Source: Norana najaformis (lineage: Eukaryota > Annelida > Clitellata > Crassiclitellata > Hormogastridae). From it: a DNA stretch of 64,000 nucleotides. Below, piece by piece: positions 6,401 to 10,113 of this stretch. The notes below the pieces were generated by a model. The model was not told the origin of the DNA. It did no database searches and saw only the letters and a program-made list of their open reading frames with translations. The position numbers and the translations under genes were made by a program. The stretch is taken from assembly GCA_964023275.1 (NCBI GenBank), contig OZ029916.1, forward strand, positions 19,872,064 through 19,936,063, written 5' to 3'. The first letter of the stretch is position 1, and each line of letters opens with the position of its first letter.

Positions 6401-9400
6401 AGAATGCTGGATCACTGGCTGGGGAAAACTCGACTGTAAGTCACTGCCATTGCTATGTGCAAGCATATATTTATAACCGAGCTAATTTAGGTATATTTGT
6501 AAGTAAGTAAAGTAGTAGTAGTCGTCAGTAGATTACCAGACTGACTCAGTAGTCGTTGCTGGCCAGTGCGTAGGCAGTGAGGCAAATGATTTATTAGTAC
6601 CTTAGTTCAGAGCAGCAACACAGCTAGCCAGTAGCCCTAAGCTACAGAGGTCAGATTCTTAGAAACGGACAGGCTGCAAGTGCACTGAGTGGAAGGGCTA
6701 TTGTTGGTAGCAATGCAGGTGAGCTATGGAATGCAGGAGTGTAGCTTAGTCAAAAGGATTCCGCTGGAGTACGCTGAGCAATCCACAGGTAGCAATCTCC
6801 AGGTACATCAGGGGGCTTTGCAGCTAAGCACGAGAGGTCCACGTGATAGCCAGATGGACGTCCACAGCTATACAATTGACTTCGGAGAATCAGAACCAAA
6901 AGGCACACGACAGCTGATGTCAGCTCGGGTCTTGGGTACTGACCGGCCCAGAAGGACTGCGCCCAGAGTCCAGAAGATTCAGGTAGAAAAGAGCTTGCAG
7001 AATGCACAGAAGAGGACTGCTCGGCCGTTCGACCAAGATGAAGGTGCAGACTGGGAGAACTGCATGTGAGTCTCGTCAGAGAGAGCAGTACATCGAGAAG
7101 CAGTCGGAGTTCAGACGTCATGCAGAAAGGTCGTAGCAGAATGTAGAGAAGATAGGCTAGCGTCTTCTGGCGCTACAGTAATCGTTATGGGTTGAGTAGT
7201 CTAAAGTTCGTCGCAGACTAAGTCCTTGCTCCGAATCTCGCTCGCGTTGCAACAGACTATAATGTATTCGTGTGAGAAAAGACAATCACAACTAAACGAT
7301 GAAAACTGCACACTGCAATCTGGACGAGAAACTCAGCGTCGTAATCGACAGAACATGAACACTACCATATATTTATGTAAATGAATTTACTCAGCGTCTT
7401 TTGTTACCTCTAAAAGCGATGGTAACCTGTGACTATCTAACAGTTCCAAAGTGATGCGTCGGAAGTTTTCTTGGTAGGCCATCTATGGGTGCGTCATAAG
7501 TTACCCAGCGGGATATGAGGGAGCCCCGGTCGCGAACAATTTTGGTTTGAGAGTATCGTTTAAAAACTTTTCTTGAGTATTTGACTTATAACGAGTAATT
7601 TGTGTTTAAATGATTGAGTTTTCGGGGCTGTTCCAACTGACAACCCGGTTTGACTTGTTAATTAAGACCGGGTCAGTTGAAGTTAAGCTCCCTCGGGAGT
7701 CCGAGGCGAAGCGCTGAACATTTTTCGACTATTGAATCTTGGAAGCGTAGTAAGTACCTGAGCAAGATCGGGAGCAGAGCCCTGGCCGCATGTTTCCAAT
7801 TTCTAGGGTCAGAAGGTTATGGGCGGGGCTAAACGCCACAAGTGACATAACACTTAACTCCTCTCACTAATATTCAAAACAAGTGACAGGACCGTGTTTT
7901 GAGTTTTATATAGAATCTCATTGGTTTGAAACTAAGTTAATGATATAAGCTGTGTGAGCGCGTACTTATGTGTGTTGTGCGTGTGTGCATGCGTGTGTGT
8001 ATGTGTGATCTATACCATTCTGCTTGAAATGTATAGGGCAGGACGACTGGATTCCGGCCATACTGCAGGAGGCTCAAGTGGAGGCAATAACAAACGAGGA
8101 ATGCAGGACTCTTCAGATCGGCTACATACGGGATTCTCACATCTGCGCTGGAACAGGATATCCAAACGCTTGCTCCGTAAGTTGTCTAAGCATCATCTCC
8201 AGGCACAATGGACAGACAAACAGACAGACAGACAGACGCCTAAGCATAGCCTAAAGCTTAAAGGCAACTGAATGGTCGATTTTCACACTGAGCTAAATGA
8301 CCTGCATGCCATGATTTAAGTATCCCAAAATTTGATCTCTTTACTCCATGCATAAACAGCCAGAAGGGAGTTTGCATTGCTGAACAGATCGGCATCCGAA
8401 CTGACCCATGTATACAGCTCGATGATGGGGAGGTAAACACAAAGGTCGGGTAATTTAATCGTCACTCCTACGTAATTCAGATGTTTACGCAGATGGCTGG
8501 ACAAAGGGACGGACAACCACACAGATATATACACATATCTATATTCACATATTATATTACAGTGTACATACACACAATACATACATACATACGTACATAC
8601 ATACATACATACGTACGTACATGCTTATTTAACGCCAACGTGCATCAGCTTATACGGGTTAGTGGCGCCCTTAACGGTTTGATAACGTTTATTTGACGAC
8701 GCCTTCATATCAAGATGATTGGCGTAACCCTTAGCGGTGGTACTTGGCATAATTTATGAACAGGGAGACAGCGGCGGACCAATGAGCTGCCGAAAAGACG
8801 GCACGTGGTACGTGGCTGGTCACGCGTCGTGGACCATCGTCACGTGTAACGGATATCCGGCGGTTTACACGCGGGTGTCCTACTTCTGGGAGTGGATACA
8901 ATTCCAGATGACGCTCAACGCGCGACCACCAGCTGTCGCTTCAGAAGAATATCTCAGCAGTAGCAGCAACAGCATCTGAACGACGGACCAGTCTGTGAAA
9001 CAGCCAGCATCGCATCTGCATAATACGGAAAGTTAGAGAAGCAAAGGCGTTTAATAGAACCCGAAAGAAAGTCACTTAAGAGACGCAAAGGGAAAAGGGT
9101 GGTTGATGCGCGAAACAGCTGGGACTTGCCTTCAAATGCTACTTCTAATTTTAAAGTTACCCGCAATAACAGTTGTTATTAGAAGGCCAACAATTATTTG
9201 CCTATTTAATTTCAGAGAAGTGGTGAAATAATAATAAATTCAACTACTTGGGTGGCTTTAGCTATGTAAATTTGTACAGAAAACAAATGATTCGGTACTG
9301 AGCCGAATAGAGGGTCGTCCATAAAGGACTCCGCAGAGGGGCAGAGAGGGGGTAATTCAAATGCGGACAGGGTGAACAGGGTCCAATGTGAACGTCCGCA

Positions 9401-10113: not shown

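Follow-up and report, generated by a model that had tools for sequence, protein, structure and literature searches.

A putative digestive S1 protease gene with two candidate alternative last exons in the annelid Norana najaformis

The stretch analysed here, hereafter the window, comprises 64,000 nucleotides of the Norana najaformis genome (608 Mb in 17 contigs) and was taken from contig C4 (OZ029916.1, positions 19,872,064 to 19,936,063). A protease gene on its plus strand consists of five upstream exons followed by two last exons, 6a and 6b. The exons and the elements around the last two are as follows, in window coordinates.

393..462, plus strand: exon 1, with a phase 0 start at ATG 393, a GT donor and a frame encoding the signal peptide (23 protein letters, recognised by eye)
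955..1183, plus strand: exon 2, with the propeptide and its Cys, the activation site DTH/IVGG and the catalytic His (TAAHC); the Pfam Trypsin match begins at residue 49
3645..3765, plus strand: exon 3, defined by AG/GT borders and frame
6258..6435, plus strand: exon 4, with the catalytic Asp (NDIALL), defined by AG/GT borders and frame
8037..8176, plus strand: exon 5, with the Cys182-Cys191 segment and the pocket floor N189-A190-C191-S192, ending in phase 0 at TCC/gtaagt
8764..8979, plus strand: exon 6a, the proximal last exon, with the catalytic Ser, S214-W215-T216, C220, A226, a Ser-rich tail and the stop TGA
9233..9238, plus strand: AATAAA, a possible but weak poly(A) signal for 6a, 254 nt past its stop
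9312..9556, no strand assigned: interspersed repeat between 6a and 6b
9955..10113, plus strand: exon 6b, the distal last exon, with the catalytic Ser, S214-W215-G216, C220, P226 and the stop TAG
10215..10220, plus strand: AATAAA, a possible but weak poly(A) signal for 6b, 102 nt past its stop

Exons 1 to 5 are intact. Joined to exon 6a they encode 317 residues and joined to 6b 298 residues, without internal stops in either case (318 and 299 codons, respectively, counted from ATG 393 with the stops included). Both products matched the PF00089 (Trypsin) model over its whole length (1-220), with 160.9 bits for the 6a form and 158.6 bits for the 6b form against a cut-off of 20.6, and both spliced forms contain the His-Asp-Ser triad in TAAHC, NDIALL and GDSGGP. 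Among PDB sequences, the top scores for both forms went to chymotrypsinogen C (1pyt), elastase (1elt) and the earthworm fibrinolytic enzyme (1m9u). By these matches, the gene is classed as an S1 protease of the chymotrypsin/elastase, digestive type. An earlier interpretation of the same DNA, made from its letters alone (the sequence-only reading), had given the coordinates and frames of both last exons, each with its own stop, their phase 0 starts with GDSGGPMSC, and their identity at 36 of 49 residues, all of which proved exact on recheck. Its proposals that exon 5 can join either last exon, and that each last exon brings the catalytic Ser and a wall of the S1 pocket, were borne out by the two complete frames and by the residues seen in both spliced forms.

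The activation site in exon 2 (window 955-1183) has His at P1, not the usual Arg or Lys, so that activation by trypsin would not be expected. Elsewhere in the window, two minus-strand stretches (26530-27012 and 59553-59972) match the laminin EGF domain (PF00053) and the laminin N-terminal domain (PF00055), and may perhaps be exons of one laminin-type gene. An open reading frame of 192 amino acids at 40976-41554 gave no Pfam match; its product resembles a LINE reverse transcriptase in the C-terminal portion.

We scrutinized the borders of the two last exons. An acceptor AG stands directly before both, and both open in phase 0 with GDSGGPMSC, as the phase 0 end of exon 5 requires for an in-frame joint. 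Exon 6b is intact, with AG, phase, C201, W215, C220, Y228 and stop all kept; the Ser-rich tail is present in 6a and absent from 6b. The sole donor-like site found by pattern inside 6a is a GT at 8846, whose use would add 82 bases and leave 6b out of phase. An in-frame TAG directly precedes 6b, which therefore cannot be the tail of a reading frame running on unspliced from upstream. With these two features, 6a and 6b would be usable solely as alternative ends of the coding sequence; the claim of the sequence-only reading that they are mutually exclusive therefore stands, no in-phase joint use having been found.

The acceptors themselves score low. In a matrix made from 21 paralogous acceptors, several of which come from one array on contig C5 and bias it too much for a firm verdict, 6a scored -12.2 and 6b -5.3, both under 20 of the 21. 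Only last-exon starts with an AG (23 of 30) entered this scoring. Among the 4083 AGs on the plus strand of the window, 61% scored at least as high as that of 6a and 23% at least as high as that of 6b. The acceptors of exon 4 and exon 5 are weak too (-6.8 and -12.4, respectively). An AATAAA does follow each last exon, as had been pointed out earlier, and a third lies at 9810. These hexamers carry little weight, because 72 of them occur on the plus strand of the window and at least one is expected within 300 nt 29% of the time. We rejected them as strong evidence, their presence being near chance.

The likeness between 6a and 6b is far beyond chance. They share 36 of 49 residues (E 4.4e-21) and 66% of their bases, and their differences fall at 12 first, 9 second and 29 third codon positions. 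In a pairwise codon model, omega=1 was rejected (2dlnL 40.9, p 1.6e-10). Synonymous sites are saturated: the likelihood profile gives a dS of at least about 2.9 with omega of about 0.08 or less, dS having no upper bound and the likelihood at dS of about 2.9 (omega 0.08) sitting 1.9 units under the maximum. BLASTN between the two segments produced one significant block, 8762-8900 against 9953-10091, and the rest does not align. The pair is old, and it has been under long constraint.

Genome searches returned 6a and 6b as reciprocal best hits among the scored matches; only the best candidates were scored, which makes the match counts lower bounds. With 6a as the query (67 matches from the best 70 candidates), 6b was found at 71-73% identity and the next match at no more than 56%. 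With 6b as the query (57 matches from the best 70 candidates), 6a came first at 73%, and the other 55 matches reached at most 63%. In a tree of 30 sequences, 6a groups with 6b at modest support (88/41). The same genome also has cox1-like mitochondrial pieces in nuclear contig C15 (L032-L035, C15:412069-412726 and 570464-571281), which have stops in the standard code; they read through TGA and AGA/AGG, as a mitochondrial code of invertebrates would allow, with no distinction drawn among tables 4, 5 and 9. The pieces agree with annelid cox1, and together with a paralogous His exon close to 1m9u they point to an annelid of the earthworm kind.

The two exons have not diverged to the same extent. 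At the 13 positions where 6a and 6b differ, comparison with up to 28 paralogues, drawn from the 65 further last-exon matches, showed a residue unseen in these paralogues at 5 positions for 6b, P226 included, and at 1 for 6a. The residue commoner among paralogues was that of 6a at 8 positions and that of 6b at 3, with 2 ties. The unseen residues of 6b could reflect relaxed constraint, and on this comparison 6b is the more divergent of the two exons, not a broken one. We estimated how much neutral decay such an exon would tolerate by simulating decay from 6a (4000 runs per level). The probability of keeping an exon free of stops with at least 36 of 49 residues identical was 0.41, 0.047 and 0.007 at 0.1, 0.2 and 0.25 substitutions per site, with all 13 differences counted as neutral changes. 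Were a dS of 2.9 split evenly between the branches, 6b would have been constrained for roughly 85% or more of its history.

We then considered what an exchange of last exons might mean for the S1 pocket. Positions were placed by alignment to chymotrypsinogen-type chains, in a residue numbering that we assume to be the conventional one. N189 comes from exon 5 and is common to both forms. The residues that differ between 6a and 6b are A213/T213, T216/G216, I217/V217, T219/N219 and A226/P226. Positions 189, 192, 216 and 226 are among the determinants of primary specificity named in the relevant part of PMC6096847. Of 28 last exons from paralogues, 19 have G and 1 has T at position 216; at position 226 there are 15 with S, 7 with G, 5 with A and 1 with T, while P does not occur. 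Since the last exon contributes the Ser and the 213-228 wall, a choice between the two would exchange N189/T216/A226 for N189/G216/P226. We infer an elastase-like, narrowed pocket for the 6a form (N189/T216/A226), and a wider entrance and an atypical back wall for the 6b form (N189/G216/P226). The earlier suggestion that swapping the last exon alters the S1 pocket is thus upheld as far as the wall changes go; changes are not significantly enriched there (5 of 12 wall positions against 8 of 37 elsewhere, one-sided p 0.16).

A single set of upstream exons lies ahead of the two last exons, as seen in the tblastn of the spliced protein, the genome search and the exon profiles. With exons 2-5 as the query, foreign local matches in the genome reached at most 55% identity (69 matches from the best 100 candidates). 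When the interval between 6a and 6b was searched by tblastn with the spliced protein (E up to 10), none of exons 1-5 was detected, and on this result the candidate of a hidden second gene in that interval was rejected. Sequence profiles for the His exon and the Ser exon, run over the rest of the window and 20 kb upstream, returned nothing better than E 0.29; the last-exon profile was built only from rows starting with GDSGG, and the His profile without L040 and L047. The flanks of 6b had no match elsewhere when compared with the whole genome. The repeat between the exons has at least 39 other copies, 72-82% identical, 40 of 998 first-look candidates having been scored with 9312-9556 itself included. 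Duplication of the exon by this repeat was also considered and rejected: the repeat, about 245 bp long, is situated in the interval and contains neither exon.

We compared the arrangement with other same-strand pairs of last exons among the 67 matches. No pair lies closer together than that in the window, with 1,191 bp from start to start; the only other pairs under 5 kb are on C13 (3,297 bp) and C5 (3,351 bp), and the next is 6,607 bp apart. On C13 (L058, C13:10593000-10602000, minus strand), a module of exons 5b and 6b lies 3.3 kb behind a protease gene. Exon 4 of that gene ends in phase 1, and its exons 5a and 5b both start in that phase. The two C13 last exons are alike at 36 of 58 residues, with 18, 13 and 36 differences at the three codon positions. 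We rejected it as a second case of an alternative 3' module, the module being a truncated and damaged copy of a neighbouring gene. This neighbour (L062, C13:10557500-10565500) has His, Asp, penultimate and last exons of its own, and the module is 84% identical to its 3' end over about 630 bp, intron included. Compared with the neighbour, the module is without 18 bases, among them the C191 codon and the exonic part of the donor; it has no AG directly ahead of GDSGG, and its 5b joins its last exon in frame only via shifted splice sites.

The C5 pair (L059, C5:10748500-10758400, minus strand) has last exons at C5:10753000 and 10756351, the second of which reads GDSGGS. It is 78% similar over 826 bp, non-coding DNA included, and this extension into non-coding DNA indicates that the C5 duplication is younger. 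No His exon was found in the L059 stretch, and a motif search found no penultimate exon near this pair or near any C5 last exon, a negative of little weight since it covers them all. The C5 pair looks like a younger partial duplication. S1 gene fragments are, as C13 and C5 show, not rare in this genome.

The C13 case bears directly on the window. A truncated fragment there gives the same first impression as 6a and 6b, which weakens the inference of alternative exons; we have held down our confidence in the window case for this reason. The sequence-only reading was right about an intact gene with phase-compatible, constrained exons, and it overlooked that a truncated paralogue can mimic such an arrangement. 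Because of the C13 control, the constraint on 6b could date from a lost full gene, and long constraint on 6b need not mean constraint as an alternative exon. For annotation in general, C13 calls for caution, as truncated neighbours can mimic alternative exons.

One explanation, the main rival, would take 6b for the surviving, undamaged 3' end of a once complete tandem sister gene that recently lost exons 1-5 by deletion, so that only the 5-6a transcript matters and the divergence and constraint date from the full-length gene. The C13 module, an old-looking yet truncated copy of a neighbour, shows just such an outcome, and the simulation leaves room for neutral change in 6b of as much as about 0.2 substitutions per site; the unusual residues and weak acceptor scores would fit as well. 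The lesions of the C13 module (the missing acceptor AG and the 18-base loss) have no counterpart in 6b, but a fresh truncation need not carry lesions. Also against a lost sister stand the failure to find a relative of 6b closer than 6a among the scored matches, though a donor gene may have died out, flanks without a match elsewhere in the genome, the lack of exon relics between 6a and 6b, and the lack of further family exons in the window or 20 kb upstream. The deletion would, moreover, have to be recent within a long history. We consider a lost sister gene unlikely, at a level that still deserves attention.

It is a good deal less probable that both last exons can be spliced while one form is minor or decaying and a single isoform matters. 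Features of either exon could favour this: 6a has the weaker acceptor score and a Ser-rich tail missing in 6b, and 6b has more residues unseen among paralogues. Both frames are intact, however, and the mean omega of the two lineages is low; the 8 to 3 preponderance of commoner residues in 6a, with 2 ties, leaves 6b divergent but not broken. An assembly or haplotype artefact, in which two alleles of the last exon were set in tandem, would agree with the finding of one copy only of exons 1-5, but can scarcely be credited. Exons with 66% DNA identity, saturated synonymous sites and unalignable flanks are unlike alleles, as is the diverged repeat between them. A duplication by misassembly had been named beforehand as something that would overturn the sequence-only reading, and on the same three grounds it was not borne out.

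We therefore return to a single gene with two alternative terminal exons as the best reading of the locus and probably the correct one. On this model, the last exon would have been duplicated locally long ago and both copies retained. Exons 1-5, with the signal peptide, the propeptide, His, Asp and the pocket floor, would be common to both products. In one form, exon 5 would be spliced to 6a and the transcript would end at the proximal poly(A) site; in the other, 6a would be skipped and exon 5 spliced to 6b. Each last exon would bring its own catalytic Ser and 213-228 pocket wall. Use of both junctions, a choice of poly(A) site and a change of specificity are predicted by this model from the DNA. 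A stronger version, in which mutually exclusive last exons set the specificity and one promoter yields two enzymes, one elastase-like and one of different specificity, has in our judgement an even chance of being right.

S1 genes with alternative catalytic ends have a precedent, since MASP-1 and MASP-3 are products of one gene; in the part of PMC3701661 that treats them, they differ only in the protease domain and in the 15 residues ahead of it. The hint in the sequence-only reading that S1 proteases offer no precedent was thus too strong. As is proposed for the gene described here, the MASP1/3 gene (MASP-1, MASP-3 and MAp44) combines a shared N-terminal part with differing S1 protease domains, according to the same portion of that paper; unlike in MASP1/3, only the last exon with the Ser and the pocket wall would change here, and His and Asp would be shared. 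Kallikreins, too, are S1 proteases with splice variants, which arise by alternative promoters, exon skipping, alternative splice sites and alternative poly(A), as set out in sections of PMC3707919. The terms 'mutually exclusive', 'duplicated exon' and 'last exon' are absent from the main text of that paper, and passages of PMC2611985 and PMC12758981 hold nothing on duplicated alternative last exons in S1 proteases. Among the matches listed from the open-licence literature, no S1 gene with duplicated alternative last exons was recognised.

The earthworm fibrinolytic enzyme (1m9u) and chymotrypsin C and elastases (1pyt, 1elt) have the S1 triad and Cys pattern found here, and a paralogous His exon in this genome is like 1m9u at 37 of 48 residues. 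For Metaphire vulgaris, the account excerpted from PMC7666815 gives 20 lumbrokinase-like genes, mostly in tandem; alternative last exons of such genes did not appear among the matches listed. The nearest functional parallel is found in insect serpins, whose C-terminal specificity regions are chosen by splicing. The relevant passages of PMC10513286 describe spliced C-terminal alternatives in these serpins, some arisen by exon duplication and including the specificity-determining loop, with 21 C-terminal forms of PpSerpin-1 and alternative regions of 44-50 residues. Serpins, as presented there, are inhibitors and not proteases, and their alternative transcripts are known.

Tandem S1 arrays are present in this genome. 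New protease specificities commonly arise through whole-gene duplication. If the specificity switch is real, the gene would be a protease counterpart to the exon switching of the serpin reactive loop. A gene with a duplicated exon for the Ser and the pocket wall, both copies kept for a dS of more than 2, would provide a natural test of the modularity of the S1 fold, namely of which substitutions switch specificity when the remaining enzyme is identical.
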